Source: Heliocidaris erythrogramma (taxonomy: Eukaryota > Echinodermata > Echinoidea > Camarodonta > Echinometridae). Taken from it: DNA of 64,000 bases. A model generated the notes under the pieces. The model did no database searches and had not been told where the DNA came from. It saw only the letters and a list, made by a program, of their open reading frames with translations. Both the position numbers and the translations under genes were made by a program. The first letter of the stretch is position 1. Each line of letters begins with the position of its first letter. Below, one piece after another: positions 2,745-56,643 of this stretch. The stretch spans positions 30,483,162 through 30,547,161 of the forward strand of contig CM046864.1 in assembly GCA_025617745.1 (NCBI GenBank), read 5' to 3'.

Positions 2745-3187
2745 CGAAAGAAAGAAAACACAAGGAAAGATGGAAGAGGAAATGATAGAAGATAGAAAGG
2801 GAAAAAATAATAGAATGAATAAAACAAAGAAAAACATAAGAAATTTAAAGAAAGAGAAGACGATAGAAAGAAAACATAAGGATACACAGAAAGAGGAAAC
2901 GATAGAATGATGAAAACAAGGAAAGGTAGAATAGAAAATTATAGAATGATAAAAACAAAGAAAAACATAAGAAATATAAAGAAAGAAAATACGACAGGAT
3001 GATGAAAACAAAGAAAAGCAAAAGAAAACTAGGAAGTTATAGAAAGATAGGATGATAGAATGATTAAAAATAAAGAAACATATAAGAAATCTAAAGAAAG
3101 AAAAGACGACTGAATTATGAAAACAAAGAAAAAAAAAGGAAAGATAGAAGAGAAAATGGAAGAATAATAAAAACAAAGAAAAAAAGA
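2745..3187 (-). repeat. Purine-rich right arm of FB-1
   Basis: Reverse complement of the left arm modules (GATAGAATGATAAAAACAAA and related). About 440 bp long, so the arms are strongly unequal. Confidence 0.85.
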
Positions 3188-3508: not shown

Positions 3509-4502
3509 CACTCTTAGAAAATGCGTAATCGGATAATGCGTGGTCAAGTTTATTCGACCACGTTCCGGGGTTGTTTTCAATCAATAATGCTCCAGCTGTA
3601 TTAAAATGACGCGAAAACTGGTACGGTTTGCGTTGTCAAAATGATGGCCACGCATTTCCGGTCATTTTAATGCACTCTGAAAAAGGATTTGTCAAAAATG
3701 TACCAGTGCGATTGGTCAACACCATATGGGTTATTTTCAACAATATGTTGGTCAATGTGTACCAATTTCACAAGTTTCACTAACGATTTGAAATGGTCAA
3801 AAAATATTGGTTATTAATAACCAATGTACTGGTCACACTTCTACCTGGTTAAACGTTGGGCCATCGTCATGAATATGCATGAGCGACAGTAAACAACCAA
3901 AATCTATTATATATAGATGACACTTGATTTGTATGTTTTTATGCAATATGATTGCACTTTGAAATGTGATGAAAAATGTGTTTCTATTAATTAATATGTT
4001 GTACATATTCAAACATGTAATTATGCCGAGGGTTAAGATCTAAAAATCTAAATTAGAAAATTATAATCTTTAACTATTTTTAGCAAGCACTGCAATACAT
4101 TCCCTGTATAATGAAGTAGATAAAAGCATTCAGAAAATAGGAATTAGGATTATAGGAGTAGGGTTAGCGTAGGATTGTAGGTGTATGTATAGGGGTGTAT
4201 ACATTAGGATAGGATAGGTTTATAGGCCACAGTAGGTAAAATATACAAAACATGTTGTGATATACTTCACTTGAAATTAGCTTTTTATCTTTGAAACGTG
4301 GATGGTTCACGCGCATCCGACAGGGTTATCACAGAATAAACGCGCAACGTGGTTAAAATTTGACCACGTTATGGGTTGAAAAATATAACCACGCTACGTG
4401 GTCATTTTGACCACGCACGGGGTTTGTGCATAGTTGATCCGGTATGCGGGGTCATTTTTAACCACGTTTGGGGTTATTTTAACCACGCATTTTTTAAAAG
4501 TG
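3509..4502. mobile_element. Probable Tc1/mariner-type MITE, TA target duplication
   Basis: Imperfect terminal inverted repeats: CACTCTTAGAAAATGCGT at 3509-3526, and CACTTTTAAAAAATGCGT read inward from 4502. Each end is flanked by TA. The subterminal regions of both ends repeat the motif CGTGGTCA / TGACCACG several times. Length is about 994 bp and there is no transposase frame. A second similar end near 3672 suggests internal nesting or rearrangement. Confidence 0.55.
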
Positions 4503-4559
4503 TAGTTATCATAGTCAGAAGGTTAGAAAATTGTTTTTCTTTACATATAGAGCATTTTT

Positions 4560-4895
4560 TTTTGGGGGGGGGGAGGGGCAAAATGTCAAAGGGCACTTTG
4601 GGGTTTTCATTTCAGGGGGTCTGACACCCCCTTCCCGATGGACAACTTTGTCAGTTTTTATATTTTTGGAATGTACGTCCATAGCTCTTCCTTCTGACAA
4701 AATTTGGTCCCTGGGCTTCAAGGGGAAAAATTTACCCCAATTTTTAGGGGCCGTCTGTCATCCCATCCCGATAGAACTTTTTGTCAGTTTTGCAAAGTCC
4801 AGTCCTACTACTTCCTACTGACAAAGTTTGGAGCATGGGGAAGATGGAGTGAAATCGACCCCACTCTGGGGCTTCTTTGTGGGGCTCTGGGGGCT
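4560..4895. repeat. Two-copy imperfect tandem repeat, about 130 bp unit, after a G-run
   Basis: Following a G-run at about 4563, two copies (around 4621-4755 and 4757-4890) share the order CCCGAT - GTCAGTTTT - CTTCC(T)ACTGACAAA - TTTGG. The short frames across it are not conserved and look accidental. Confidence 0.5.
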
Positions 4896-5365
4896 AAACC
4901 CGACGGCTACGGTTAGGCTGACAACCTCTATGTTAATGACTTAGATGGTCTAAGTAACTTTACGGTGTTAAATCGTATGGGTAAAACGGGATGACTATTT
5001 CGGGACAGGCTCCCAGACTAATAGTGCCTTTTGGAATAAAACCCAAGCGAAATTTAGTCATGCTGCTAAACGCTAATGTGCTTTGTAATGTAATTAAAGT
5101 GTCAAAGCTTGTTAACATTAGAATACACGCTCGGTTAATTTCAAAAGACACTCAACCAACAGAAACGAGCTACCACAACCCCCACCCCCTCCTTTTTCGA
5201 GACTAAACTTTGGTCAAAATAATTTATGCTGAGAATTCCCCCCCCAGGAGAAAGTCTATGGAAGAGTTTCATATTTGTGCGGAAATTATTTTTTCCTTTT
5301 TTTTAAATATCTGGGAGCATAAAAATATATATAGTCCCAAAATTAAGTTATAGTTCGTATATTTG
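4896..5365. other. Unannotated spacer
   Basis: No recognisable gene. It contains short open frames without domain features and a C-run near 5237. Confidence 0.4.
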
Positions 5366-5750
5366 GGGGTAACCTCGCTAGTCATAAGGATCAGTGGCTC
5401 ATAAGGACCGCTAGTCATAACGTGTAATTTCCTATACCTGTAGGGTCGCTATTCATAAAGCGAAAAGGGGGTCACTATTCATAAACTCATAAGGAGCATT
5501 ATTCATAAGGATTGCTATTCATAATATGAGAAGAGGGTCGCTATTCATAATCGAAGAAAAGGGTCATTACTCATCAGGGCCGCTATTCATAATAAGTCAT
5601 AAGGGTCGCTATACATAATACAGATACAGGGTCGCTATTCATAATACCAAATCGGGGTCGTTAATCATAAAGGTCGCTACTCATAATCGAAGAAGAGGGT
5701 CGCTATTCATAATCGAAGAAGAGGGTCGCTATTCATAATCAAAGAAGAGG
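5366..5750 (+). repeat. Minisatellite, outer left arm of FB-2
   Basis: Degenerate units of GGGTCGCTATTCATAA with linkers such as TCGAAGAAGA. Degeneracy is highest at the outside and units become uniform toward 5750. The array stops abruptly where the CCCATATGGG element starts. Confidence 0.85.
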
Positions 5751-5764
5751 CCCAGGTAACAGGT

Positions 5765-6809
5765 CCATGTGGGGCCCATATTGGCATCATCCGGGCCATC
5801 TGGGCCATCTGGGCAAAAGGGAACCCATATAAATCCCATATGTATCCCTTGTGGGACCCATATGGGTTAACCCATTTTGAGATGTACTTGGGCCAGCCCA
5901 TATGGGAACCATATGGGAAAAGACTGGGAAAACCCATATGGGAATGACATGTAAATGCCCATATGGGTATCATATGGGAATAAGCTGGGCAAACCCATCT
6001 GGGAAACATCTGTAAATGCCCATATGGGTACCATATGGGAATACGCTGGGCAAACCCATCTGTGAAACATATTCAAATGAGCATATGGGTATCATATGGG
6101 AATAAGCTGGGAAAAACCATCTGGGAAACATATGTAAATGCCCATATGCATATCATGTGGGAATAAGCTGGGCAAACCCATATGGGAAAACATTTGTAAA
6201 TGCCCATATGGGTATCATATGGGAATAAGCTGGGCGAACCGATATGGGAATGACATGTAAATGCCCATATGGGTATTACATGGGAATAAACTGGGCACAC
6301 CAATATGGGAAAGACATATGAAAGCCCACATAGATATCACATGGGAATAAGCTTGGCAACCCCATATAGGGAAACAACTGTAAATACCCATATGGGTATC
6401 ATATGGGAATATGCTGGGCAAACCGATATGGGAATGACATGTAAATGCCCATATTGGTATTACATGGGAATAAACTGGGCAAACCAATATGGGAAAGACA
6501 TGCAAATGTCCACATGGGAATCATACGGGAAAATGCTGGGCAAACCGATATGGGAATGACATGTAAATGCCCATATGGGTATTACATGGGAATAAACTGG
6601 GCAAACCCAAATGGGAAAGACATGTAAATGCCCATATGGGTACTTTATGGGAGTAAGCTAGGCAAACCCGTCTGGGATATATATGTCAATACCCATATGG
6701 GTAATAAATGGGAGTAAGCTGGCCAAACCCATATGGGAAAGACATATGAATGCCCACATGGATATCACATGGGAATAGGCTGGGCAACCCCATTTAGGGA
6801 AACAACTGT
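5765..6809. repeat. CCCATATGGG tandem array, left part (about 61-bp period)
   Basis: Unit order is CCCATATGGG - TATCATATGGGAATAAGCTG - GGCAAACC - CATATGGGAA - CATGTAAATG, repeating about every 61 bp from about 5958. Each unit holds two or three 10-bp palindromes centred on CATATG. Frames on both strands are long but periodic and not protein-like. Confidence 0.9.
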
Positions 6810-6813
6810 AAAT

Positions 6814-8494
6814 GAAGAGCTTACTTGCAAAAGGCCCTAAATCCATTTTTTATCATATGGCACCTTTTTATATGCCTTAATAGAGATTCACCATGTGCAT
6901 CAAACTGGCTATATTTCAGCTTCTAAAAGTTTCAGGAAGTTTGTTAAAAAATGAGATGAAAATTATGTTTTCTTTCAAAAGGCCCTAAATCCAAAACACT
7001 TTTCTTGCAAAAAGCCCTATATCCATTCATCTATCCTGCATCCTGATTGGCTAAGAGAATAGGTTTTTGGCATGAATGACCAATCACGCGCCTCCACACA
7101 ACACACAACCATCTATCCAGAGACTCTGTGTGAGAATCTTTCCAGCTTTTTGACATTTTTTATGGGAATTAAATACACCAAATTCCTTAGTTTATCAAGA
7201 TCTTGAATATTACTATAACAATGGAGCTTGCAGATATAACCAACAATCCCAGAAAAAAAGAAAGAAAATGAAATGAAATGAAATCTTATTGGATGTACAT
7301 GAGTATGTGATATGAGGATGGTGTGATATTGAAAAAGGTTCAGCAGGTGCTGTTAACTCTAATGACATGAATAATACAGCCATGACAAAGATGATGGTGA
7401 TGATGCTACTGTTAGTGATGGTGATGTTGATGATGATGGTGATGATGCTACTGTTAGTGATGGTGATGTTGATGATGATGGTGATGATGCTAGTGATGGT
7501 GATGTTGATGATGACAGTGATAAATGTGATGATGGTAGAAATGGTGACAGAGATAATGATAACAGTGGTGGCAATGATAATGGCGATAAAGGTATTTACG
7601 ATCTCCATAATGACGATGATAATGGTGATGATAATGGCAATAATGATGATAACAACAATGATGATGTCGCTTATGATGATGTTGATGCTGATTTCATTCA
7701 TGTGTATGATGGTGTGATGCTGAATGTTCTGATGATGGTAATGGTGTGGTGACGATGGCAATTATACGGGTGATAATGATGGTATTGGCTAAGTGATGTG
7801 ATGTTGATTATGATGATGCATTCTACTCTGGATACAGTAGATATTGTTTTTATTTTGACCAAAAATGCTTTATTAAGGGCAGATAATGACTGGCTACTGT
7901 CAGTAGACAATACAAATTATCTTTGGAATCGACTTAAAAATGTTGCTATATCAGGCAAGGTTTATCCGAGTAAAGAAAATATTTTATGCAGTTATCTAGA
8001 GCAAGTCTGCTTTATTTTTAAGGTCAGATGATGATTTTCGATAAGTCACCCCAATTATCTTTCGAAGTTTAAATTTTCATTGATTTTATAATGTTGCTAT
8101 ATCAGGCAAGGTTTATTATAACCCATTAAACATAGGCAGGTGGAGCAGCACAAGAGGTTAGGTGAACAAGGGCGGTGGATTTTTGGTTCATTAGAAAGAT
8201 TTCTAATGCGTAAATTACTATTATCATTCAAGACTTTTCTTGCAAAAGGCCCTAAATCCCACTTTTCTTGCAAAAGGCCCTAAATCCAAAAAAATAATAA
8301 ATATAAAAAATCATATAAAATATTTGACGGCCGCAGGATTTTTAAAATTGTGATTATTGTTACTTGTGGTGATGTCTCTTAAACATACATGAAGATATTC
8401 TTGAATGAAATCATAGAACTGTGTGAAACAAAAAATCTCGATTTACTAAGAAGTAGGTAAAGTGGATTTAGGGCCTTTTGCAAGAAAACTCTTC
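6814..8494. mobile_element. 1.7-kb inverted-repeat element with iterated subterminal motif
   Basis: The ends are GAAGAGCTTACTTGCAAAAG at 6814 and GAAGAGTTTTCTTGCAAAAG read inward from 8494, with 29 of 32 positions matching. The target AAAT is duplicated at 6810-6813 and 8495-8498. Uninterrupted array units (for example 6381-6400) read CTGTAAATACCCATATGGG, confirming the empty site. The 20-mer CTTGCAAAAGGCCCTAAATC or close variants recur near both ends (about 6978, 7008, 8239, 8267), consistent with protein-binding iterons. No transposase is seen; the interior has a GAT-rich microsatellite and a 25-bp direct repeat (about 7939 and 8091). Confidence 0.75.
7372..7800 (+). repeat. GATGATGGT-type microsatellite
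   Basis: Imperfect GATGAT/GGTGAT trinucleotide array inside the 1.7-kb element, including three near-identical blocks at about 7390-7510. Open frames on both strands (Met/Asp-rich or Ile/His-rich) are artefacts of the repeat. Confidence 0.9.
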
Positions 8495-8498
8495 AAAT

Positions 8499-9010
8499 AC
8501 CCACATGGGTATCATATGGGAATAAGCTGGGCAAACCCACTTGGGAAACATATATATTTGCCCATATGGGTATCATATGGGAATAAAATGGGCAAACCGA
8601 TATGGGAATGGCATGTAAATGCCCATATGGGTATAAGATGGGAATAAACTGGGCAAGCCTATATGGGAATTACACGTAAATGCCCATATGGGTATCATAT
8701 GGGAATATGCTGGGCAAACCCCTGGGGAAAGACATATGAATGCCCATAGGGATATCACATAGGGAATAAGCTGGGCAACCCCATCTGGGGAAACAAAAGT
8801 CAATGCCCATATGGGTTTCATATGGGAGTAAGCTGGGCAAGTCCATATGAGTATGATATTCCAAAGTCCAAATGGGTGTCATTTTGAAATGACCTGGGCA
8901 AACCCATATGTTAAAATATGTAAACCCCAATGTGGGTATCATTATTGGAATAATCTGGGCGAACCCATGTGGGTAAGATGTGTATATCATAAACTGGGTA
9001 AACCCATATT
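8499..9010. repeat. CCCATATGGG tandem array, continuation of the left part
   Basis: Same unit and phase as 5765-6809, displaced by the 1.7-kb insertion. Units decay after about 8850. Confidence 0.85.
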
Positions 9011-9134
9011 CTTGAGGGGTACATACTTCTGACAAAAAAAATTATCAGCATACTATTAAAGATCTACATTGTACACATTTGCAAACTGAATTCATATTTT
9101 GTTGTCATTATACTGGCCCTAACTTATCAAACGG

Positions 9135-9370
9135 TAATAGAGTACCGAAGTGTGACATCATACCGCCCAAGTTGTCAAGGTTGCTGGTTCTAAACAATTT
9201 TGTGCTGAACAATGGCGTGGTGATCACACCGGCACCAAACACTGAATTTGCCCTGCTCCAGCCCGTTGCTTGACTGATTCCGCGGTGAACCTCAAGCACG
9301 GGCTTTGTTGTTTAGAACTAGTAACCTGGACGACGAGCGAATATGACGTCAGCACTTCGGTACTCTATTA
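9135..9370. mobile_element. Small foldback MITE (236 bp)
   Basis: TAATAGAGTACCGAAGTG at 9135-9152 is the exact reverse complement of 9353-9370. The pairing continues inward with an ATGACGTCA-like block and a GTTCTAAACAA block, leaving an unpaired centre of about 95 bp. No coding frame. Confidence 0.65.
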
Positions 9371-9787
9371 ATCTATGCAGACCTAAAGAATGTGAGAAGT
9401 GCTTAAGAGAAAATGAAAGCACCTCCCAACCCCCATGTGCTTTTGACCCCTAGTACAAATGGTTGAGTCCACTTTTCAAACCTGCCCCACCTTTTGAGGA
9501 AACGGCATTCCATTGCTACTACTTACGAAGGAAGCACTACACATCCGCCTCCCTACTCTTTGAAGGTAAGCTGATTTTTATATCTTATCATTTCATTTCA
9601 TCATCATTTCATTATTCATCCATTTTCTCTTTGATATTGTTTATTAATTTAAAAGTACATATATAGCCTGAGATGTACCATCCAGTGACATTTTCTGGTC
9701 CATGACTGTCTTTTGAGGGATTATTATGAGTGAATTGATAGAGAAATGTTAATTCAGTTGAGATACCAGCACTATGAACACGATGAA

Positions 9788-9931
9788 CAATTGCTTTAGT
9801 AGACAAAAGAACATCCCTTCATTACTATTATGTAAAATAAGCAGAACAGGTGAATATGCATGTGACACCTGTTCTACATATTTTTACATAATAGCAATGA
9901 AGAGATGTTCTTTTGTCTACCAGGGCAATTG
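9788..9931. repeat. 144-nt near-perfect stem-loop
   Basis: Two arms of about 65 nt are nearly complementary. The left arm contains GTAGACAAAAGAACATC and TATTATGTAAAA; the right arm contains their complements. The loop is 15 nt (about 9853-9867). Roughly 88 percent of positions pair. It could be a tiny MITE or a transcribed hairpin; nothing in the sequence decides. Confidence 0.75.
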
Positions 9932-12821
9932 TGGAAGGTACAATGAGGAGCTGTATATTTTGTCCGCTTCTTTGTTCGCCATGTTCATAGTGCAGTTTAC
10001 CTTAGCTTAATTAATACTCCCGTGATAGTTTACATTCCCTACTGGTCTTTTTATAACCATGGGGTTGTGTGGTAACTCCTTGGTTTAACTAGTGGTCTGG
10101 TTTTCCATGTATATTGGCTAAGAAATCAAAATCATTTCACTAGGCAAGTGTGTATCGAGCACATAATTATGCAGCTTCAATTTCAAGACAAGATGAATGT
10201 CATAGTTTATTATGTCATAATAATGTTATTGTTCGCTTCATGTGAGGAACATCTGCCATAAAAAAATAATTGAAGTGTCATTACTACCATTCTCAAAACT
10301 ACAGATGAGCTTGATATCTTTATAAAGTTGCCTTTCTTGCACTCTATTTCTCTCCCCTCCCCTTATTTCTGTATCAGTATTGTACCTTTATTCCATACAC
10401 CATTTTATTTTCTGCTATATTTCTTGTCATTTCCCTTTGCATGGGTCAATAGGTATTATCTATATTTCTATATGTTTTCTTTTTTTCCCTTTTCTTTTTT
10501 TTTTGGTGGGGGGGGGGGAGGGTGGGACCCGACTCACTTTGATTTTTTTTTTTATTTTATGGAAACGGCATGATGTCTCGTATATGTGGTATATAGAGAG
10601 AGTGAGAGAGAGAAGGGGAGGGGCAGGAGAGAGAAAAAACGAGCTAACATTTAGATTTCCTTTTTAAAAAATATCTGCATTGGTAATCAAAAATTGTAGC
10701 ATATTTCACTACAAAAGTTTAATATTGTAAATATGCTGGTGTAATATTTTTTGTAAAATTTGTTACATGTACATATATCTCACTCTGTCGTTTCAGATCC
10801 AGCAAATAGACGAGAAAAACAACGGTACGAGGAAACAGCATAAGCAGTAACGTAGCAACTAAAAAAAGAAATTAACGTATATTCTAGATGGACAAAATGA
10901 AGAAGACTTCTGGCACGTGTTAAGATTATATCATGATTATATCCAAACTGGATGAAGCTGTTAAGGTGGCACCATAAGCAGTACCTGCAGGAAAATGTTT
11001 GCAGTATTCGGAACTGAAGAAATGTTTACTATGAATACTATGAAGGCCGGGAAAACTCCTTTCAACATGCCCTGGTCGTGTATGCATCTCAACTATGGGG
11101 GAATGCACAATCAACTGATGAAGAAAAACCGCAGCTTAAATAGATGTTGACCAGTAATTTGGATAATTATGAGGAAGTGCCAGATGGAAACAACTATTGT
11201 TTAACCTTATCGTTTGGATAGCATGATGTGATTGTAATAACAAATACTGCATAGTAATCATCTTTAATGTATGCATGGTGAAGGAGACCTAGAGATTACA
11301 ACTGGAGGAGAAAGTCTATTGTATATATATCAATTCATTCTACTTCTGACCGCCGTTCTGTTATTTGATGAATTCGCCAACTGGACCTTTGGGTATTAAA
11401 ATATTACTTACTCAGCTCTTTGTGATAAGATACATGCATTTCTGAAAGAACATTCTAAACTCATGGGGCTTGACACTGAACTCCACTAGCCTGCACGTTA
11501 TGAAGGAACTAATGGCGAAAAATGGATAGTGTGAAATTGTTTCGGGGTATCGCCTTAACCATGCCATAAGCTATAATCCGGAGTCGACCCTTCCGAACAG
11601 ATGCATATTTTTTTCAATAGTGAGAAGGAGCCGTGATATAAACTACCTAACCAATACAATATTCCATTATTTATTATTTTCACAACGTGTTTTTCTTTTA
11701 AGTTTGTTTTAAGTGTGTTGCCAGGGCTGTTCTTTAGAAATTGTACTTACAGTATCTAAACAACTTCCAACTTCCAATACCATGTGATGTGTCACAAAAT
11801 GAATTGTATGAGAAATGATTCCATCAAAATCCCATTATCATTTTTAATGGTAGACTCCTAAGCTTATTTCACTTCAATAATGTATGTCGTTGCATATCCC
11901 CTAGCTTAAAATGAAAAATCTCCAGTTCTTTTTGTAAGATGAACATTATGGTGGTTAATTGATTGATAATATATTTAACCTGACAGCTAAGAAAGCAAGT
12001 TAGCGTATGTTTGTAAGCAAGCAACCGGGGGAAAGAAATCTTTTAGTCCTATTCGAGGGACTTGGATTAATTCCTTACCAACTACACAGTATTAATTTCT
12101 AATATTAAAAAGGTTTACTTTGAAATATGATTACTTACTATTTAATGGGTAAAACTATGTAGAAATAAGTGAATACATGATTGCATGAATGGGATTTATG
12201 GGGTACTTCATGGAAATCTAATTACTGCTATGGAGTAAATTTCCTGGGCATGTACGAATAAGTGAAAATGTATTTGCAGATCAATATAAAATACATGTAT
12301 GTCGTTGCCTATTCCCAACTTAAAAGTAAAAAGTTTGATGAAAATATCATTTATAGATGCATATTTATAATAAAAAATGTTTATATACTTTGATAATCTA
12401 ATTACTACTCTGGAGTAAATTTATTGGGTATGTAGCAATAAGTGAATACATGTCAGCGTGAATGAGTTTGGTGGGGTACTTCATATATAGGCATGCTCAG
12501 AAATTTGTTGACCGCGCAAACAGGTCTGTTTTCAAGACAAAATTCCACAGGCAATACTCATTATTTGTGACATACATGTATGTACACAGGTTGCATGGCA
12601 GGTCACCGGCAACTTATATTTCAAGTACCCCCCATTTTTCATTTTAATGTTGTTGTTTTTTGTACTGGCATAGCTGTGGTGAGAGGCTGATGATGATTGC
12701 ATGATCAAGTAGTCTTTGTGTCCCATGACTTTCCTTAAAACCGATTTAGGAGTTGTCCCCTTGTATCAAATGAATAGACCAAAATAGGCATATTGTAAAT
12801 CTCAGTTGTTAAATTATTTCG
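9932..12821. other. Unassigned centre of the CCCATATGGG element
   Basis: No recognisable domain on either strand. It contains a G-run near 10506, a GA-rich stretch at about 10597-10640, and a stretch after a pyrimidine-AG at 10796 that could pass for a splice acceptor but opens only a short frame. The remaining sequence is AT-rich with no frame over about 80 codons. Confidence 0.45.
11878..12490 (+). repeat. Degenerate direct repeats
   Basis: The block ATGTATGTCGTTGC followed by CTTAAAA recurs at about 11880 and 12297. The block CTAATTACT - CTCTGGAGTAAATTT - GGGCATGTA - CAATAAGTGAA recurs at about 12218 and 12399. This implies an old tandem duplication. Confidence 0.5.
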
Positions 12822-14050
12822 GGCCCATGAGGGGGCCCATGGGAGAACACAATATATGGGATCAATCATACTGTTCCCATATATTACCCAGATGGACCCC
12901 AGATTAAACCCATATGGGCCATCGGGTATGGCCCATATGGGTCCCCAATGGGCCTTGTGTGCAAAATACTATGGGGCCCCATATGGGCATTCCAGGGTAG
13001 GACCAAAATAGGGGATAGCCTAGTATTTGCCAACATATTGCCCACATTTATACCCAGATTGGCCCCAGGCTGAACCCATATTAGCCATGTGGACGGCCTT
13101 TATTGGCCCCATATGGGCCTTGGGTGCAGAATCTTATGGGTCCCGTATGGGCATTCCCATGTGGGACCCATATGGGAACCCACAGATAATACCCATATGG
13201 GATAGCCCATATTTTGCCCACTTATTTCCCACATTTATACCCAGATGGGCCCCAGGCCGAACCCATATTGGCGATCTGGGATGGCCCATATGGGACCCAC
13301 ATGGGTCTTGGGTGCAAAATCTTATGGGGCCCATATGGGCATTCCCGTGTGTGACCCATAAGGGATAGCCCATATTTTACCCACATATTGCCCACATTTA
13401 TACCCAGATGGGCCCCAGGCCGAACCCATATTGGCGATCTGGGATGGCCCATATGGGACCCACATGGGTCTTGGGTGCAAAATCTTATGGGGCCCATATC
13501 GGCATTCCCGTTTGCCACGCATAAGGGATAGCCCATATTTTACCCACATATTGCCCACATTTATACCCAGATGGGCCCTAGGCCGAACCCATATTGGCGA
13601 TCTCGGATGGCCCATATGGGACCCACATGGGTCTTGGGTGCAAAATCTTATGGGGCCCATATCGGCATTCCCGTGTGCCACCCATAAGGGATAGCCCACA
13701 TTTTACCCACATATTGCCCACATTTATACCCAGATGGGCCCTAGGCCGAACCCATATTGGCGATCTGGGATGGTCCATATGGGACCCACATGGGTCTTGG
13801 GTGCAAAATCTTATGGGGCCCATATCGGCATTCCCGTGTGCCACCCATAAGGGATAGCCCATATTTTACCCACATAGTGCCCCCATTTATACCCAGATGG
13901 GCCCCAGGCCGAACCCATATTGGCGATCTGGGATGGTCCATATGGGACCCACATGGGTCTTGGGTGCAAAATCTTATGGGGCCCATATGGGCATTCCCAT
14001 GTGGGACCCATATGCAAACCCATATGGGGCCTACATGATCCCCATATGGG
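12822..14050. repeat. CCCATATGGG tandem array, right part (about 163-bp period)
   Basis: About six copies of a unit marked by TTATACCCAGATGGGCC, starting near 13236, 13398, 13561, 13723 and 13887, with decayed copies before. Within each unit CCCATATGGG-type palindromes alternate with CTTGGGTGCAAAATCTTATG. Unit length and sequence differ from the left array although the core palindrome is shared. Frames across it are periodic artefacts. Confidence 0.9.
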
Positions 14051-14063
14051 CTTGCTACCTGGG

Positions 14064-14425
14064 GGGTCGCTATTCATAATCACAGAAGAGGGTCGCTATT
14101 CATAATCACAAAAGAGGGTCGCTATTCATAATCAAAGAAGAGGGTCGCTATTCATAATCAAAGAAGAGGGTCGCTATTCATAATCGAAGAAGAGGGTTGC
14201 TATTCATAATCGAAGAAGAGGGTCGCTATTCATAATCAAAGAAGAGGGTCGCTATTCATAATCACAGAAGAGGGTCGCTATTCATAATCACAGAAGAGGG
14301 TCGCTATTCATAATCGAGAAGAGGGTCGCTATTCATAATCACAAAAGAGGGTCGCTATTCATAATCACAGAAGAGGGTCGTTATTCATACTCGAAAGAAG
14401 AGGGGCGCTATTCATTATCGAAGAA
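14064..14425 (+). repeat. Minisatellite, inner left arm of FB-2
   Basis: Homogeneous GGGTCGCTATTCATAATC units with CACAGAAGA, CAAAGAAGA or CGAAGAAGA linkers, about 27-bp period, same orientation as 5366-5750. It ends in GGTTAGGGTTAGGATT, only two telomere-like hexamers. Confidence 0.9.
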
Positions 14426-15640
14426 GAGGTTAGGGTTAGGATTATTTGTAAAACATTGTAATATGATTTTCAGTGTTCAATGAACACTCAAATATGAAAG
14501 AACAAAACTAATAATATTGGATGGGAGACTCCCAACGGCTGTGTCGAAGTAATATTGGGACGGACGATGAAACAAATACATCCATTAAAGTAGGTATTCA
14601 AAGAAAATCACAAATATGGCAATTAATGTATCACTAGAAACTGGGAAGCTTACAGATGGCAATCGTATAAGTTTTATGTCAACTGCGTATCTGATGATTA
14701 TAAAAACAACACAAATAAAAGCTCTTCTCAGCATCTGGAATATCCGAGGATTCGCCAGAAATATAGCGATGTTTTGATGTCGTCACACTCGGGATCGATC
14801 CTGCTTAAGCAGACGACGTCCTATAATGAATGAACGTAATTGCAATGCAATTATTTATCAAATTATAAAGAGTTTGGTGTATTTAAACATGACCTTATTT
14901 CACACCATTATAAAGGGAAAGTAAAACTGATTCTGATAGCTAAAACCGTTTGATTGTAAATACACAGGAGAAGGGTCAATGATCAATGAAATAAACCCCA
15001 CTTTCAAATTGAAAAGCCCTCCGAATAATAGCAGGATGGTATTCGTTCCCTCTTGAAACGCCGAACATGCCCCGGTGCAAGCAGCTGAAAATACAATGGC
15101 GTCTTATTTTGTTTACAAGTGACTGATTCCTTTATTTTTTTAACGCTGCATTTTTCATCAAAATAATACCATACACGAAGTTAAGAGTGAGGCAACAGAC
15201 TAACATTAAGACTGACGCTAGTGAAGGAAGAGAAATAAGTGAAGAGGATATGACAAAATAGGCTCTGAAAAATGTGTAAGATGTTATGGGACATCGTCTG
15301 CTTAGACAGGACTGGTCCATGGTGTGTCGTCACATATCTCAGCAGCGTTCGAGGAGCTCTTCAGCTGCTATATCGGGGGCTGTATTTTACCGTTTTATAA
15401 TTGATAATAATCATTACTTCAAATGTTTCCAAGCGTTGAATTTGGATAACCTTGTTTAATTTATGCCATCTATGCAATAATAAGTATTAAGCCAATATTT
15501 AAAATCATTAAAGTTCTACTTTAAAAACAGGCGAGAGCGAAAAGGCGGAGGAAGCGGAGGAAGAGAAAGATAAAAGCTACGACATTTGCATCCACCCCTG
15601 ATACATACAGTGCAGCATTGCGTCCAATAATTGAAAAGCA
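14426..15640. other. Unannotated part of the FB-2 loop
   Basis: No supported gene. Frames are short and without domain features. Confidence 0.4.
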
Positions 15641-15647
15641 GTCCGGT

Positions 15648-15870
15648 GTCGAACTAACTTTGAATCCGCCTAAAAGAAGGTGCTACATGTACGAGCCGCT
15701 ATCTTTTCTTAAATTTGCTATAAAACGTCACAGGTTTCGCGTTTCACGTGGCAAGGGGACAAATTGTAAAGTAGTCTGGGCGTCGAACTATGCCTATAAC
15801 CTTCCGCCTAAAAAGAACTGTTTGCTGCGAGCCTTTATCTTTCTCTCAAAGTTGCTACAAAACGTCAGAG
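15648..15870 (+). repeat. Two-copy imperfect direct repeat (about 134-bp offset)
   Basis: The order GTCGAACTA - TTCCGCCTAAAA(G)A - GAGCC - ATCTTTC - TTGCTA(T/C)AAAACGTCA occurs twice (about 15648-15733 and 15782-15867). The frames over both copies do not look conserved. Confidence 0.5.
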
Positions 15871-16031
15871 GGCCCCACCCCCCAGGACAAGACAATTGGC
15901 TGTAAAGGTGATTAGCCTTTGCCTCCTTCACTTCCAAAAGTTTACCTTTTCTATTCCCCAAATAATCATCACTTATCACTTCAACAATTGTGGAATCTTC
16001 AAAGAATTTCCCTTTTATTTTAACAGCGCAT

Positions 16032-16296
16032 CCAGGGGCGTATCCAGGATTTCCCAATAGGGGGCGCCAGGCATTATTGATCGCCGTCCTGGGGGAGGGG
16101 TCTAAGGGGAGGGGGTGCCCCCTCCCCTTTGGAAAATGTTTGCTTCTGAAGAAGGGCTGAGATGCAAAATAATCCTATATGTGACCAATTTTGAAGCCTA
16201 CTTGATGAACTTTTTTTTTTGCTAGTTCTTTTTTTTACGATGGCCAATGGGGGGGGGGGGGGGCGCCTGTTCCGCCACCCCTGGATACGTCACTGG
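16032..16296. mobile_element. hAT-like MITE with internal G-runs
   Basis: Inverted ends: CCAGGGGCGTATCCAGG at 16032, and CCAGTGACGTATCCAGGGG read inward from 16296. The interior has a G-rich block and a 16-nt G-run near 16247. Ends of the CAG(T/G)GGCG-ATCCAGG type are common in hAT-derived MITEs of marine invertebrates, but I could not confirm an 8-bp target duplication. Confidence 0.5.
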
Positions 16297-17181
16297 CACC
16301 ATTCTCTTTCAATAATGCCTACTCTCTCTCTCTTGCCTTTAAGTGCCTCTGCAGAGGACAAAACGCTTATTGAAATGTACTTCATATTTGTCTTTTCGAT
16401 TAACCCTTTTGGCGAGTGGCGAAATGAGACTTTTCAAAACTCAAATTATGGTCATTTTTTTTGGTAAAATGGGGCGTTACTTAGATTCTGGTTCTAGCTG
16501 CATGTGGGAAAATAATGTGACATGAACATAAATATAAAATAATATAGTGATAAAAATAGTTAAATTGGAAGGGAAAGGGCGATATTGGTATAGGAAAGGA
16601 GCACTACTGGAGGTGAATGATGAAATCTTGAGAAAGGAAAGGGTTTTCACGAGTTTAATAAAGTGGGGTGAAGGACCACTTTTCAACAAACTTCCTCTGC
16701 CCCGGAATCTCCATCTCTAAATGATTTCTTTTAAAATATCCACGTAGGCCCACATTATTTAGAGCTGACCGTCGGATTGGAACTAATGTTGTCCTTTATA
16801 ATTATTGAAAATGAATCCTAGTCAATACACATCTTATAAATAACTAAACAAATAGATAATCACATATTCGGTAATTGGCATAAAAGCGTAAAGAGTGGTC
16901 CTAAACAAAAGAGGAGGCTTACCTTATAGACCAAAATCGTGTGAACGACGTACATGTACAGAACGCTACAAGAAACTAGGCCTACTTTTCCCACTATATA
17001 TGCGCGTATCGCTTTATAATCAAGTTCTCCATCGATAAAGAAGGGCGCACGCGCAATGTGTAGGACATTTTACTCTCCTTTTCTTTTAACGAAATATCAT
17101 TTGTTTATATGATTCAATTAAGGTTATATTTATTTCCTGTCCTCTTTTTTATTAAAAAACAAACCTTTATTACTCCTTTAC

Positions 17182-17290
17182 TGCTAATTTTTTTTTTTTT
17201 GAGGGAGGGGGCGAAAATGCGGTTTGCCCCCACCTTTTTGTTGGGGGTGATCGCCCCACCCCCAATTTCCGGCGCCTATGAACGCATCCT
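17182..17290. mobile_element. Fragment of a G-rich MITE
   Basis: T-run, GGGAGGGGGCGAAAATGCGG, a C-rich block and TTCCGGCGCCTATGAACGC resemble one end of the same hAT-like class as 16032-16296. The other end was not found. Confidence 0.25.
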
Positions 17291-17359
17291 AGATCTCAGT
17301 TAGGTTTAAATGACGTCACAGTTTATGGCAGGTTTTTTTTCGAAAAACCGCATCCTTCT

Positions 17360-17935
17360 GGAGAAAACTAGAAGAGAAATATTACAAAAAAATCATACAA
17401 ATGCAAAAGGAAGAAATAAGAGAAAAATACTGAAAACATAAAAGAAGGAAAGAGAAGATGCTAGAATAAGAAAGACAGAATAGAGAAGAAGATAAAAGGA
17501 AGAAACACAGAATAAGAGATAGAGGAAAGATCAAAAGAGCAGATGAAAGGAGAACAATGAATAAAGGCACGGGGTAGGGTACAACAAAAGATGAAAGAGA
17601 TGAAAGAAGGAACAAATAAAGGAAAACATAAGGAGAAAAAAAAATGCTGGAAGGATAAAACAAAGTATAACATTTATAATGGAAAGACAGCAAGAGAAGA
17701 TAAAGAAAGGGAACAAAGAACAATTTACGGAAAGACAGAAAGAGAAAATCCAAGAATGATCAAAATACAGAAAGAGAAGAACAAAGAAAGATCAAAACAA
17801 AAAAGAGCATAAGAGAAGACAACAAGAAAAGATAAAGAAAGCTCAAAACAAAGAATAACATAAGGACAGAAAGAGAAGAGGAAGAAGAATATAAAGAGAG
17901 GCGAAGGGAAGGATAGAAGATGAAGCGAAAAATAA
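17360..17935 (+). repeat. Purine-rich low-complexity tract, target of the LINE
   Basis: AG-rich tract with modules such as GATAAAG and AACAAAGAATAACA. Matching sequence (AAAACAAAGAATAACA) resumes at about 21064-21170, on the other side of the LINE, so the LINE split one tract. Apparent frames on both strands are compositional. Confidence 0.7.
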
Positions 17936-20900
17936 TTATTCAATTATTCAATTCAGTTTATTCAAATTCCGATAAAAAGTATACAAACTTGAAATAGATA
18001 CATTAAAACAGTATAATATAGGGATTAAATATTCAATAAAATGCAATACAGGATTTTAACTATAAAAGGAATAGGGATGACCATTAAAAGACCAGGTGCT
18101 GGTCTTGTCGAGACAGCCAACCATGTGTAGATTAATAGTATTGCAGTCATGTTACACGTTTAACTCAATACAATATTGTAATACATATAGAACCTTAAAC
18201 AGAAACAAACAAAACCTAACAAACCCTACACAAATGCAGTATATATATATATAAGATGACAGTAATAATCATTAAAAACTATTCAGATAATAAATATTTC
18301 TTCAATGTTCTTTTAAATATTGTTAAAGATTTCATTAACTGCATTTCTATGGGGAGATTGTTCCAAACAACTGGTGCATGATGACGAAATGAGAAGAGTA
18401 CATAATTTCTATTGACAGGCCATAAGTGATATTTTTTACTACTTCTTGTGTTATGTTCATGTATATGTGAGTTTAAAGTTAACATGGCAGACATAGAATT
18501 ATGGAGTAAGTTTTGCTTATGTTTAAACAATAATATTGCACTTATTATACATTCAATTGATAGATATTAAGTAAATTTAGTTGAATAAACAATTCTTTAG
18601 TGTGTGCTAATTGGTATGATAATGTACAGATTCTAACAACTCTTTTTTGCAAAACAAATAATCGTTGTAATTTAGTAGGGTAGGTATTTGCCCAAACTGT
18701 ATTACAATAAGTTAAATAAGGTAAAATTAAAGTATTATACAAGATAACAAGGATATGTTTTGGCAAGAAATGGCGAAGTTTACTGATAATACCAACATTC
18801 TTCGATATTTTATTTGAAATTTCTAAAATATGATTATTCCAAGATAACTTTTCATCTATTAATACTCCTAAAAATTTGGTGTGAGTTACACGCTTTATAA
18901 TTTCATTATCCATTTTTATATGTAGGTCCATAAAATTATTTACATTTTTATTATAAAAATATATAAAATTTGATTTATCCATATTCAATAATAATTTATT
19001 ACACTTAAACCACTTACATACTTTTCCTAATTCTAAATCCAAAGTGTTATTCAAAGATTGTATATTTTTATCTGAAGCAAGTATGTTGGTATCATCAGCA
19101 AAGAGTATAAATTTTAAAATATCAGAAGATCGAGGTAGATCATTAATAAAAATTAAAAACAACAAAGGTCCTAAAATAGACCCTTGGGGTACACCACATA
19201 AAATATCCAAGGGATCAGATAAAGTTTCATTAAAAGAGACATACTGTATGCGATTATGTAAATAGCTATTAAACCACATTAGAGGAAGCCCTCTTACTCC
19301 GTATATTTGCAATTTATTCAATAGGATAGGATAATCAATACAATCAAATGCCTTACTTAAATCTAAGAAGATCCCAATTGTATGAAGTTTGTTATTTAAA
19401 GCATTAATAACATAATCATGTAAATTAATCAAGGCTATTTCAGTTGAAACATTTTTTAAAAATCCGTATTGAGTTTCGGTTAAAAGAGAATTGCATGATA
19501 AAAAATCATAAAATCGATTATAAATAATTCTTTTTAAAATTTTGGAAAAGTAAGGGAGTATAGAAATAGGGCGATAATTAGAAATATCATGTACATCACC
19601 CTTTTTATGAATGGGAATTACTTTAGCAATCTTTAAATTAAATGGGACTGTACCCAATGACAAGGATAAATTAAATATATGACATAATGGTTTCAAAATA
19701 AAATATATAACTTCCTTAATGACGGGGGACTTAAATCATCTATACCACAACTATTTGTGCACTTTAATTTCTTAACAATATCGCATATTTCATTTTCAGT
19801 TACAGGATTAAAAAATACAGAACTAGAAAAGGGTTTAGGCAAGAAAATGGCATGAGCATTCTTATCTGAACAATTAGCGGCGTCATGTATAGAAAATCCT
19901 ATTTTTACAAAAAAATCATTAAAACAGTCTGCTATATTTTTATCACCATGTACATCACTACCTTCAACATTAATATATTCTGGCAAACTTTTATTCTTAT
20001 TACCAAGTATTTCCTTAATAACATTCCAAGTTTTCTTCAAATTCCCATTAGATTCTTGAAATTTTCTTCCATAAAACCTTTTACGTGCTATTTTCAACAA
20101 TTTATTTACTTCATTTCTTAATATAACATACCTTTTCTTATTTCTATCAATTGGATGTTCACGATATTTCTTAAAACTCCTATTTTTTTTCCTTATCTTC
20201 CTTAACAAATCCGAATCAATCCAAGGCTTCTTGGGTTTACTTTTTTTCTTTTTAAAGACCTTTTTAAAAACATTTTCATATAACAAAGTAAATTTCATTA
20301 AAAATCTATTATAAGCATTATCAACATTTTCACAATATAATATATCATTCCAATCAATTAATATTAATTTTTCTTTAAATAAATCTATCGTTTTATCGTT
20401 TATAATTCGTTTTTTAAGTACAATATTATTCTTATCTAAATTATATTTCTGAGTGATTTGGAAAACTGGAAAATGGTCAGATATATCATTAAGAAATAAG
20501 CCAGAAGAAATATCTAAATCAAAATTGTTTGTAAATATATTATCAATAAGAGAAAAAGATGATTCTGTTACCCTAGATGGTTTATCAATAAGAGGTAAAA
20601 AGCTATATGAATATATTGCACCTAAAAATTGATTTACATTATTATTTGAATATTTAATTAAGTCAATATTAAAATCACCCATAATGTAAGATGGCTTTGA
20701 TTCTAAATTAATCTTTTTAAGACAATTTTCAAATGCAATAATAAACTCATTCATATTTGCTTGTGGTTTTCTATATACAATGCCGACAATAATATTCTTT
20801 TGATTCAATAACATAATTTCAATAAACAATGACTCATAATTTTTAGAAATATCTAATAAATCACTTCTTATTCTAAAACGTAATAAATCTGAAATTAAAA

Positions 20901-21040
20901 GAGCAACACCTCCACCATTTCCATATTTACGATCAGAATGTATGAAGGTATAACCATCTACATTGAATAAAAGGGGTGTATGCTCATTAATCCATGTTTC
21001 TGAAAAACCATATATAGAAAACTTAAAAAGTAAGGTTGAT
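17936..21040 (-). mobile_element. 5'-truncated non-LTR retrotransposon (CR1/L2/Jockey-like)
   Basis: Minus-strand element with partial APE endonuclease, reverse transcriptase and C-terminal region, followed by a 3' tail of short repeats (TTGAATAATTGAATAATT, read on the minus strand). That kind of tail is typical of CR1/L2-type LINEs, which lack poly(A). The 5' end is truncated within the endonuclease domain at about 21040. The element interrupts the purine-rich tract. Confidence 0.8.
18279..21036 (-). pseudogene. LINE ORF2: endonuclease-reverse transcriptase, two frameshifts
   Basis: Read on the minus strand. The open frame starts inside the APE endonuclease near 21036 (SETWIN, then GDFNIDL near 20680 and SDHFPVF near 20475). 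It continues through a linker rich in Lys/Asn into reverse transcriptase, with NYRPISILPYFSKIL, DLSKAFDCID, GVPQGSILGPLLF and the catalytic FADDTN (about 19110). The C-terminal segment has the VWNNLP..FK..LK signature of CR1/L2/Jockey relatives. Frames break near 19695, between endonuclease linker and RT, and near 18545, before the C-terminus. Both look like single-base indels. The element would nick DNA and copy its RNA at the target site, but this copy is dead. The clade is not resolvable by eye. Confidence 0.85.
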
Positions 21041-21180
21041 AAAAAGATAAAGATAAAATGATACTAAAACAAAGAATAACAAATAAACAGTTAGGGAAAA
21101 CAAATGCAGAAAGATAAAGCAATGATAAGTTTAGGACAGAAGAAAAGATAAAGGGCTGAAAATATGAACGAACATTAAGA
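21041..21180 (+). repeat. Purine-rich tract, continuation beyond the LINE
   Basis: Shares GATAAAG and AAAACAAAGAATAACA modules with 17360-17935. Confidence 0.6.
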
Positions 21181-21185
21181 GATGT

Positions 21186-21875
21186 CCTGGGGTAGTTGAC
21201 CTAAGGGGGTAGTTGTCCAGATACGATATATACATGATTGTATGCCCTGCACTTGTTTTTCAAGGGGAGAGTTCATAAATGACGGTTCTAGTAGTAGAAT
21301 TTATAGTTTAAATGCTATGAAAGCATTGATATCAAATTCACAGGAGACGGAGGATGTGGCCTGTAGGATTGGCTTGTATTACACCCCCCCCCCCCCGCAA
21401 AAATTCACCTTCAATAAATGACATGATCAAGAGGAGGAGGAGGATGACCATGATGATTATTATTCATAGGATCAAGATCGATCAACATTGGGATAATTTT
21501 TGTCATGATTTTTGTTAAGATTGTGATAAGGAAGACCGAAATAAAGATTTCAAAGAATATAATGAAATTAAACAAGTTAGTAATTACCATGAAAGCACAT
21601 GCACTCAAATGCTCTGAAAGGTGATTTTAACTCGGGGAAATTTGAAAGTCCCAACCGTGGGAGGGCATACTTCATTTCCATCCATGCCCATAAACATGGG
21701 CACACTGTAAAAAAGTGGATGCCAATGAATTGTATGTTACTAAAATCACGTATTATGAAAATATTACTATCCCACCCCAAAATAAAAACGAAAACAATTT
21801 TTTCACGGCAATTTCTAAGCCCGTATCCGGACAACTACCCCCTACAACTAATCTCCAGGATAACTACCCCCTACG
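21186..21875. mobile_element. MITE with doubled subterminal inverted motif
   Basis: The left end carries GGGGTAGTTG(ACC) then GGGGGTAGTTGTCCAGATAC (about 21190-21226). The right end carries the complement, CCCGTATCCGGACAACTACC, then TAACTACCCCCTACG (about 21820-21875). So each end has two GGGTAGTT(A/G)TCC copies. The interior has a C-run at about 21385 and no supported gene. Confidence 0.55.
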
Positions 21876-22264
21876 AGAATCCCACCCCCCCCCCCCCTCC
21901 CCAATGGACGATTGTTGAGATAAAGGCTAGGGATTAGGTCTCCACAGGAGCTGAGAAACGGGAGGATCTGGATGATTCAATGATTCATTTATTGTCATGC
22001 AACAAGGATAAAAATTGTGTTACAATCTGATGTCCCAATTTCAAGCATAAAATACATATCAGAAAATTGCACGTGATGGATAAGAATGAATACAGAAAAA
22101 CATATTAATGCACATGTATCAAAAATATATTAACACATTGAGAATAAAGAGGCATGACAATATAATACCTCATTATTCCATGATAAATCTACGTAAACAG
22201 TATACAAAAGGAAATAAGAGTACAAGCAAGAGGTCCATGTCTTGCAGAAAACCATGCAGAAACA

Positions 22265-22480
22265 AAGAAACAAAAAGCTTGAAAAGGAAGGAAGGGGGAA
22301 GAGAGAGAGAGAGAGAAAGGAGGAAAAAGAAAAAAAGAAAGAACGAAAAGGGTACATAAATAGACCACCAGTACTCTAAAAATAGGTGTGGCAATGACAC
22401 TCCAATATTCAAAACAAAGTACATGTCTGCGTGTATGTGGGTGTGTGGATGGGGGGGGGGGGGGGGGGGGGGGGGTCCTC
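22265..22480. repeat. Purine-rich tract and long G-run
   Basis: GA-rich stretch (about 22280-22350), then GTGTGTGGATG and a G-run of over 25 nt at about 22450-22475. No coding sequence. Confidence 0.7.
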
Positions 22481-22689
22481 TCCTCCCACGTAGATGTATG
22501 GATTAGACATGGTTTTTTAATTATTAAAGCATTGGCAAAGCGCGAGTATTGATAAATATAGTTCACTTTTTTAGAAAATAGGGATATATTTGACAAAAAC
22601 CGGAAATGCATTCTATAGAGCTTTCTTAAATACAGTACCGTTGGGCCTTGGGTTGTCTTTCATCCATATCCCTCTCTTATTTGATTTAA

Positions 22690-23307
22690 ATGACGACCCT
22701 CTTCTGTGATTATGAATAGCTACCCTCTTCTTTGATTATGAATAGCGACCCTCTTCTTTGATTATGAATAGCGACCCTCTTCTGTGATTATGAATAGCAA
22801 CCCTCTTCTCTGATTATGAATAGCGACCCTCTACTCCGATTATGAATAGCGACCCTCTTCTTTGATCATGAATAGCGACCCTCTTCTTTGATTATGAATA
22901 GCGACCCTCTTCTGTGATTATGAATAGCGACCCTCTTCTGTGATTATGAATAGCGACCCTCTTCTTCGATTATGAATAGCGACCCTCTTCTGTGATTATG
23001 AATAGCGACCCTCTTCTGTGATTATGAATAGCGACCCTTATGAATATTGACCTTTATGAATAGCGACCTCTATGAATAGCGACCTTTATGAATAGCGACC
23101 CTTATGATTAACGGCCCTGATTTGGTATTATGAATAGCGACCCTCTTTCCGTATTATGAATAGCGATCCTTATGTCTTATTATGAATGGCCGTCGTTATG
23201 AATAATTACCTTTATGAATAGCAACCCTTATGTCTTATTATGAATAGCGGTCCTTATGAATATTTTTTTTTATGAATAGCGGTCTTTATGACTAGCGAGC
23301 AGACCCC
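22690..23307 (-). repeat. Minisatellite, right arm of FB-2
   Basis: Reverse-complement array (GATTATGAATAGCGACCCTC) with homogeneous units inside and degenerate units outside, mirroring the left arm. Shared diagnostic variants are listed under FB-2. Confidence 0.9.
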
Positions 23308-31705: not shown

Positions 31706-31852
31706 TGTCCAATTTCTATTGGTCGAGGCGGATTTGCAATATGCAAATTAAAGCCGGGATATTGTGTGACGTGACGTCACATTAGGTGTGTCGAGGTTTT
31801 GGTCATTGACCATTTGCACGACATAGAACTCACACGTTTGTCTGGATTGCTT
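31706..31852 (+). promoter_or_regulatory. A1 split direct repeat, probable promoter region
   Basis: 147-bp terminal repeat with CCAAT (31709-31713) and inverted ATTGG close by. It also has an octamer ATGCAAAT (31741-31748) and a full CRE palindrome TGACGTCA (31772-31779) preceded by a half site. These motifs together look like a Pol II promoter. It ends 52 bp before the gag ATG. Confidence 0.7.
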
Positions 31853-31904
31853 AGAGATATTCTTCAAGTCTTTTGGATTCTCGCTTCTGGCGCTGGGTTT
31901 TTAA

Positions 31905-32693
31905 ATGGATACCACTCAAGGAGCTGTTCCCGAGGGCATTGCTGACGCAGGAATGATACAACCAGGTCAAAATTCGGTACAAAATCAAGGTAATGTACCG
32001 TACATTACTTTAGAGAATATTTCTGACATTGTTAAGAACGCAGTCGGGGGCGTTAAAGATTATATTGATAACGCTCTGTCGTCTACCAAATCTCAGGTTT
32101 TGGAGTCGGCGAGAGAATCTGCCAAAGCTGCCAGTTCATTCAAATTTAAAGGCAATCGCATTCAGTTTGAATTCAACGTTAACATTAAAGAGCAGGTGGA
32201 AACTGCTGTGGCCAAAATAGAGAAAGGTGATACCGCTGCCGCTACGTCTAGCCTTAAATCGGCATTAGATGACATAAAAACCAGGAATAAACATATAAAA
32301 CTTGCTGATAAAAACGAGAGTTGGAAAGTGGTAGACGAATATAAAGCCGAGGAACTGGCTGACAATGCGGAAGATGAAAAGCGGATTAAAGCGGCTGTCA
32401 AAGCCGTGGCCTCTAAAAAGCCGAGCAAAGCGTCTAAGAAAGGTCAATTCAGAAATGTCCCGTACCAAATTCCATCTGGGAGTAGGCGTACAGATGCCTA
32501 TCCTAACTTGGATTCTAATTTTCGTGGCCATTTTCAACAAAATAGATACCAGTTTACTAGCAGCCGTGCAGGTAGTTCCAGAAGACTGCCAAATTCAACC
32601 GACATCTGTTTCAGATGCGGGGTCAAGGGACATTGGCAAAACTCATGTACAGCCCAGTACAGAAGTTTTCAAGCTGATAAACAAACCCAGTAG
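31905..32693 (+). CDS. Gag-like protein of the PAT-like element (262 aa)
   Basis: Starts at ATG 31905, directly downstream of A1. The N-terminal half has ITLENISDIVKNAVGGV, which is also found in the second DIRS-type copy at 55.8 kb. The middle is Lys/Ala-rich and probably helical. The C-terminus has a zinc knuckle, CFRCGVKGHWQNSC (about residues 235-249, CX2CX4HX4C), expected to bind element RNA. The frame stops at TAG 32691-32693. An alternative frame through 32700 continues to a good splice donor (see the putative intron). Length and layout fit DIRS gag proteins. Confidence 0.85.
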   Translation: MDTTQGAVPEGIADAGMIQPGQNSVQNQGNVPYITLENISDIVKNAVGGVKDYIDNALSSTKSQVLESARESAKAASSFKFKGNRIQFEFNVNIKEQVETAVAKIEKGDTAAATSSLKSALDDIKTRNKHIKLADKNESWKVVDEYKAEELADNAEDEKRIKAAVKAVASKKPSKASKKGQFRNVPYQIPSGSRRTDAYPNLDSNFRGHFQQNRYQFTSSRAGSSRRLPNSTDICFRCGVKGHWQNSCTAQYRSFQADKQTQ

Positions 32694-32710
32694 TTCAGCT
32701 GAATATGCAG

Positions 32711-35175: not shown

Positions 35176-35485
35176 GGTGATTTTGAGGAGCTATTTAAGG
35201 AAAGAAAATTCTGGAGGCTCACTGGAGCTATGAAGAGATGAACGGGACGCACTGGTGTCCTATAATTAGATTAATATTGGCTCACTGGAGCATTTATGAG
35301 ATGTGACTCACTGGAGTCGATTGGATATGGAGTTGAATATATGTATGAATTTAGAGTGGGAGATTGGGAGTCTCTCTATAGGCTCGGCAGATTTTGTGAC
35401 TAGAGGTAGTCAGTTGATAATAAACTCACTGAAGTTTAATGAAGTGTAATGTTATTTAACCTTCAATTATGTTAATCAATGGAGG

Positions 35486-56612: not shown

Positions 56613-56643
56613 ATTTTTGTTTCGCTTTGGATTTGCCACAACC

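Follow-up and report, generated by a model that had tools for sequence, protein, structure and literature searches.

The question raised by the palindrome-rich block at positions 5751–14063 of a 64,000-bp stretch of the Heliocidaris erythrogramma genome (contig CM046864.1, C12:30483162-30547161; hereafter the window) is what kind of element it represents. A sequence-only reading had put the block forward as a candidate new element class. Most probably it belongs to the animal TRC/CACTA (En/Spm-like) type of cut-and-paste DNA transposons and is a non-autonomous member, in which subterminal palindromes, the probable docking sites of a transposon protein, have been expanded into arms. Unit insertion, common ends, 2-bp target duplications, a conserved layout and variable arrays can be read from the sequences of this copy and its relatives. 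Membership of TRC/CACTA rests on the ends and the duplication and is provisional, because the window copy encodes no Transposase_21 domain. Positions refer to the window and features to its + strand unless stated otherwise; other loci are given by contig (C1, C2, etc.) and position.

The sequence around the block is a minisatellite with a 26-bp period, and its phase allowed the insertion to be defined. Deletion of 5751–14063 together with exactly 2 bp gave minisatellite spacings of 26, 26, 26 and 26, and deletion of the block with 0, 1, 3 or 4 bp did not restore the period. The phase test and the table of paired ends described below identify a 2-bp target site duplication, GG, with its left copy at 5749–5750 and its right copy at 14064–14065. 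As had been claimed, the 8,313-bp block (a length that includes a later nested insert) was, judged by this empty-site phase, inserted as one unit. The interruption of the minisatellite is real, but the minisatellite itself appears to be one arm of a larger element. The block opens with a left terminal inverted repeat (5751–5774, +, CCCAGGTAAC...) and closes with a right one (14040–14063, − strand, CCCAGGTAGC...), both carrying the family motif and identical to each other at 20 of 24 bp. CCCAGGTARC occurs exactly twice in the 64 kb, in facing orientation, at 5751 (+) and 14054–14063 (−); in the left end of this copy one T replaces C, and the end still conforms to the family pattern. The tip-to-tip alignment ranked first among the 408, 405, 398 and 385 inverted offsets compared over 30, 40, 60 and 100 bp, respectively, and no direct offset equaled it over 30–100 bp. 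Over 240 bp the same alignment was unremarkable, ranking 21st of 127, which shows that the true inverted repeat is short.

Between these ends, both arms of the block are built from a single palindrome. The core CCCATATGGG has 30 exact matches in the window, all located at 5857–14050 (0.10 expected), and the wider palindrome CCCANNTGGG is present in 48 copies, 23 in the left arm and 25 in the right arm, with none in the nested insert, the centre or the remaining window (64 kb searched). In dinucleotide shuffles of the left and right arms the mean number of copies was 0.43 and 0.63, with a maximum of 5. Tandem Repeats Finder (TRF) delimited 61-bp units at 5896–6814 and 8495–8973 and 163-bp units at 13191–14012. 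In combination with the motif map this gives a left arm in two parts (5896–6813 and, past the nested insert, 8495–8973) and a right arm in which an inner stretch of palindrome array (12811–13190, defined from the motif map and by comparison of loci) lies ahead of the regular 163-bp array (13191–14012, 96% matches). The proposal of two arrays with different unit lengths and one core palindrome is sound; all 48 copies are confined to the arms. The segment 6814–8494 that interrupts the left array and had been counted into the block, however, is a later and separate 1,681-bp inverted-repeat element (GAAGAG...CTCTTC) whose rejoined flanks align to the array. Its duplication reads AAAT; with the boundaries of the element moved outward by one base on either side, it reads AA.

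Lone half-sites mirror each other between the arms, with 16 CCCA and 59 TGGG on the left and 41 CCCA and 24 TGGG on the right; the Fisher value of this contrast overstates its significance because tandem units, which are not independent, were treated as independent. When whole halves were counted with the centre included, the right-hand bias was weak in other copies, e.g., 38 versus 35. Folding as single-stranded DNA was compared with shuffled sequences. Two left-array pieces outperformed their shuffled versions, with z scores of −3.5 and −2.6, values for a right-array piece (−1.5) and the left tip (−1.8) were less clear, and a control from the centre gave +1.0. As to the suggestion that the arrays form cruciforms, this folding shows capacity, not use.

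The same ends and repeats were found throughout the genome, which was searched in full (1,064,227,859 bp, 26 contigs). A 25-mer of the 61-bp unit gave 941 matches (542+399) and its reversed control 0, and a 22-bp end motif gave 268 matches (136+132; reversed control 0+0). The ends noted in the single block are real, and the 268 exact ends show that other copies share them. Positions were listed for 100 of the 268 ends, covering contigs C1 to part of C8. Among these 100, 66 form 33 facing pairs, one measuring 58 bp from end to end and the others 5.3 to 20 kb; all 33 combine one left-type with one right-type end, as labeled by us, and no two ends lie back to back at a distance of 25 kb or less. 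Target sites were tabulated for 33 end pairs, including the window and C1:40832159 (left tip with one change) and leaving aside lone ends, three listed C6 pairs and the 168 unlisted ends. Two rows of the table have one right end in common, so the 33 pairs represent 32 insertions. An identical 2-bp flank was present in 31 of the 33 pairs (30 of 32 insertions), where chance would give a match in one of sixteen. The duplications comprise 12 different dinucleotides: AT flanks 6 of the 31 pairs that match, and 11 others account for the remainder.

Twelve array loci, picked from the head of the list of 61-bp-unit matches, were studied for their layout; clusters beyond this sample include one of 15 kb at C2:5344944-5359405. 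The left tip, 61-bp array and centre occur together in 11 of the 12, although the copy that ends at C2:12650655 has just part of the tip, and the right array also lies within the fetched stretch in 8 of the 12, the others being truncated or running past the stretch. At C1:6348656, a short copy without the centre has a right tip together with fragments of the two arrays. All twelve loci have at least one terminal motif, which for this sample argues against ordinary satellite DNA occurring without the ends. Copies that share the ends but not the centre, which the sequence-only reading had suggested looking for, were found in at least two cases. A 1,027-bp array-only relative (L035, C1:35118821, positions 1501–2527 of that locus) has a diverged 61-bp unit, family-type ends and a TG duplication, and the copy at C3:51444039, which is 58 bp long and belongs to the 33 pairs, has family ends, an AC duplication and no arrays. 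A search for CCCAGGTARC ends 20–50 bp apart gave C3:51444039 only; a unit that is barely more than two ends has therefore been flanked by a 2-bp duplication at least once.

Whether the palindromes matter to the element is a separate issue, since the arms could be satellite-like arrays that grew by slippage or unequal exchange and were carried along without a role. Array length does vary greatly between copies: uninterrupted left arrays span approximately 1.3 to 9.5 kb, the number of 61-bp units found by TRF ranges from about 12 to 62 in five other copies (15 plus 8 in the window), and right-array periods are 163, 188 or of mixed length. The 58-bp copy, flanked by a duplication even though it lacks arrays, agrees with a passive origin as well. 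On the other hand, the palindrome core is kept across arrays with units of 61, 163 and 188 bp and in the diverged 61-bp unit of L035, and transposase genes have palindromes of a different sequence clustered densely beside them, as described below. We consider roleless palindromes possible but rather unlikely.

The centre (9031–12810) gave no Pfam match in six frames. Over long stretches its identity to most of the other copies is approximately 94–98%, and its identity to C2:766912 is 87%. Among nine copies (the window and eight loci; C1:16345094 and C2:7263264 are not in this alignment), divergence was mostly 0.009–0.028 by the Kimura two-parameter (K2P) distance, with a mean of 0.021 that contains one pair at 0.095, a value caused by alignment of two unrelated inserts, and excludes C2:766912, an older copy with a divergence of 0.054–0.072. 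The low divergence of the centre indicates, from sequence comparison, that the family spread recently or was homogenised. Within the centre lie a 232-bp miniature inverted-repeat transposable element (MITE) at 9137–9368 with a TA duplication and a hairpin at 9787–9932 with 51-bp arms that are 90% complementary. C2:766912 lacks the MITE; its two flanks, with an overlap of 2 bp, provide a natural empty site.

Several candidates for ancestral coding sequence in the centre were rejected. A spliced frame with GT/AG signals across 9454–10850 gave two weak PDB matches (E 0.5 and 0.81) that were taken as chance, and no conserved protein was found across this segment in one alignment, which is no proof, as there are stops in frame and copy lengths differ. 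The extra DNA of the longer copies C1:61133308 and C2:13387435 consists of two different inserts at one TTAA site. Different elements inserted at the same TTAA of the centre, near window positions 9400–9406, were noted in two copies of the family, at about 4396–5100 in joined L019/L020 and about 11161–11960 in joined L029/L030. In C2:7263264, the extra stretch of 3.9 kb has no open reading frame (ORF) longer than 119 amino acids.

The nature of the mobilising enzyme was approached through the ends and through Transposase_21, the domain of TRC/CACTA transposases. TRC inverted repeats are reported to start with CCC in Schistosoma, Aedes (CCCAGTCAAC) and Tribolium, and the elements to have a Transposase_21 domain and direct repeats of 2 bp, which 7 of 14 Schistosoma copies show (PMC1636069). 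A Hydra element with CCCAGCCAACATTGAC ends (CCCAGCCAAC...) and 2-bp duplications was assigned to TRC/CACTA on these two features (PMC4298943), and CACTA-like MITEs with CAC ends also have 2-bp duplications (PMC6004678). The block has both features, CCC ends (CCCAGGTARC at both ends) and a 2-bp duplication (31 of 33 pairs), and its CCCAGGTAAC/CCCAGGTAGC ends with a 2-bp duplication of free sequence are the reason for placing it here. In the genome, Transposase_21 gave 14 matches, 13 of them above the curated cut-off, and 0 in each of 14 control genomes. Open frames of 826–877 amino acids contain five of the 14, among them the one below the cut-off. The mobilising transposase is probably of this type.

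Several observations weigh against this assignment. A six-frame Pfam scan found no transposase in the centre of the window copy, and the ORFs of at least 170 amino acids seen outside the arrays of the other loci looked by eye, with no family search, like reverse transcriptase or belonged to other inserts. An exact partner within 25 kb is missing for 34 of the 100 listed ends, and 2 of the 33 tabulated pairs lack a 2-bp match, one having a 3-bp match (AGT) and the other none. Three of the 14 Transposase_21 matches fall within the region covered by the listed ends (C2, C4 and C6); none of these three comparable matches lies between CCCAGGTA ends, the distances to the nearest listed end being 6.4 Mb, 145 kb and 1.9 Mb, respectively. 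Moreover, CCCANNTGGG was absent from 20 samples of 160 bp around five Transposase_21 loci.

Three of these samples contained a different palindrome. The 10-bp GCAAGCTTGC is dense beside three of the five sampled Transposase_21 loci, in clusters approximately 1.9–3.3 kb downstream of the matches, with 5, 3 and 3 copies per 160 bp in L108, L113 and L117 (C20, C13 and C2); the C13 and C2 samples are copies of one another, and L113 and L117 likewise contain GCTTGCAAGC. It was absent from the samples at the C8 and C21 loci, which are alike upstream, and from the window and 172 kb of array loci. The presence of this palindrome near transposase genes is a suggestive parallel to the palindrome arms of the block.

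En/Spm subterminal regions are far shorter than the arms of the block. Repeated subterminal motifs are a general CACTA feature that the block has in the form of 48 CCCANNTGGG copies; for TRC the available portions of the descriptions do not state it. In plant CACTA elements, TNPA binds such motifs and can act in trans, and the motifs vary by family (PMC2613891). Plant En/Spm, Tam1 and Tgmt* resemble the block in their short inverted ends and protein-bound, family-specific subterminal motifs, but have plant CACTA ends and, in Tgmt*, a 3-bp duplication. Among TRC elements, SmTRC1 and Spongebob/EnSpm-4N1_HM share the CCC-starting inverted repeats and 2-bp duplication, and SmTRC1 has a tandem-repeat region. 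The block differs in having no Transposase_21 gene and in carrying a long array of a 10-bp palindrome in each arm, a feature on which the TRC descriptions, as far as available, are silent. A docking role for palindromes has a precedent in Hermes, where two DNA-binding domains cooperatively bind a quasi-palindromic pair of subterminal repeats (PMC10368747), although Hermes belongs to another superfamily (hAT) and has a handful of sites, not arrays. Secondary transposase sites in tandem repeats of the arms have been proposed for Tetris and stated for one Galileo (PMC4079207, PMC3573991). By analogy with TNPA, Hermes, Tetris and Galileo, CCCANNTGGG probably is a docking site for a dimeric protein, multiplied by the arrays; the mirrored half-sites and the survival of the core across unit lengths support this reading.

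With these parallels, the proposal of a new class, made because no family with this layout was known, is not supported: CCC ends with 2-bp duplications are described for animal TRC/CACTA elements, and protein-bound subterminal repeats for plant CACTA elements. As far as the literature compared extends, the kind of transposon is known, and the long palindrome arms and the second palindrome are unusual. The layout was not named in titles and abstract beginnings, a search that lay outside Repbase and most subscription journals, so we do not claim that it is undescribed.

Mutator and P elements duplicate 8–9 bp. A transposase of either type would be expected for a foldback element of the FB/TU/Tetris/Galileo kind, with long inverted arms of tandem repeats. 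The block indeed resembles Tetris, Galileo F and Tm1 in its tandem arms of variable copy number, and it shares their non-coding centre. Foldback types, however, have long inverted repeats, whereas the block is inverted at its tips only: its arms share 8–12-mers about equally in direct and inverted orientation, local arm alignment scored 65 inverted versus 50 direct, and the tip alignment is special up to 100 bp and not at 240 bp. K-mer sharing, alignments and tip ranks together rule out long inverted arms, and the 2-bp duplication contrasts with the 9 bp of Tm1. A foldback origin is accordingly improbable.

Tc1/mariner elements duplicate TA. A further cut-and-paste group with 2-bp duplications, ISL2EU (PHIS) or Mirage (CMC), could also have given rise to the block, as CMC elements have duplications of 2–4 bp and ISL2EU of 2 bp (PMC4482050). 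ISL2EU, however, duplicates AT, at odds with the 12 different dinucleotides in the block family, and Mirage belongs with CACTA to the CMC group (PMC6004678). We see little chance for this origin either. A domesticated regulatory or chromatin element that collects a host E-box (CANNTG) or homodimeric transcription factor has CANNTG inside every CCCANNTGGG in its favor, but is very improbable, as the conserved part reaches CCC/GGG beyond CANNTG and the copies resemble one another, are dispersed and have target duplications at their flanks; the factor binding suggested earlier is plausible, with a transposon protein as the likelier binder.

No exact match to four block patterns was found in viral contigs, and three matches to a three-palindrome pattern in prokaryote contigs were taken as chance. 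The mirage minisatellites of amphioxus, described as exon-boundary duplications, are unrelated to the block, and KolobokP, a Kolobok lineage, is described with long terminal direct repeats, unlike the block.

Other elements surround the block in the window. The minisatellite at 5376–5750 and 14064–14429, with a short TTAGGGTTAGG stretch at its inner edge (14430–14440), and an inverted copy at about 22674–23297 look like the arms of a larger element (5374–23299) with CTCGCTAGTCATAA tips. Its arm alignments scored 287 and 571 inverted and 16 direct, and its tip motif CTCGCTAGTCATAARGA has 1620+1539 genome matches (control 0). We infer a foldback- or TU-like element, for which a convincing target duplication was looked for at 5374–23299 and not found. 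The T-rich and A-rich tandem arrays at 216–2208 and 2801–3185 are inverted copies (score 423 inverted, 12 direct) and perhaps form another element with tandem-repeat arms. At 56034–61403 lies a Gypsy-like long terminal repeat retrotransposon with direct repeats of approximately 558 bp that are 99.5% identical, a recent insertion. At 31706–36894, two identical direct repeats of 147 bp enclose ORFs for a reverse transcriptase and a tyrosine recombinase, which points to a DIRS-like element.

For the block, a CACTA-type mechanism can be proposed. A transposase of the Transposase_21 type, provided by another element, would cleave the DNA at the CCCAGGTARC ends, and insertion would involve a cut staggered by 2 bp. 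An analogue of TNPA, a DNA-binding protein that is encoded by a transposon and probably acts as a dimer, may bind CCCANNTGGG and join both ends. Tandem duplication would have multiplied the docking sites, giving arms that range from hundreds of bp to 9.5 kb. More tentatively, the CACTA-type transposons of this genome might use 10-bp palindromes as family codes, CCCATATGGG here and GCAAGCTTGC beside transposase genes, amplified so that non-autonomous copies out-compete their source.

Through the analysis, what was a cluster of palindromes becomes a transposon family that can be counted and whose ends and target rule are known. It ties a satellite-like sequence to a transposon. The family also provides a natural length series, with elements of 58 bp to 20 kb and left arrays of approximately 1.3 to 9.5 kb, for testing the role of subterminal repeats. 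The occurrence of GCAAGCTTGC beside transposase genes suggests a general design. If the family-code idea is true, the arms would reflect selfish multiplication of docking sites for a dimeric protein, and each family would be pressed to change its code.

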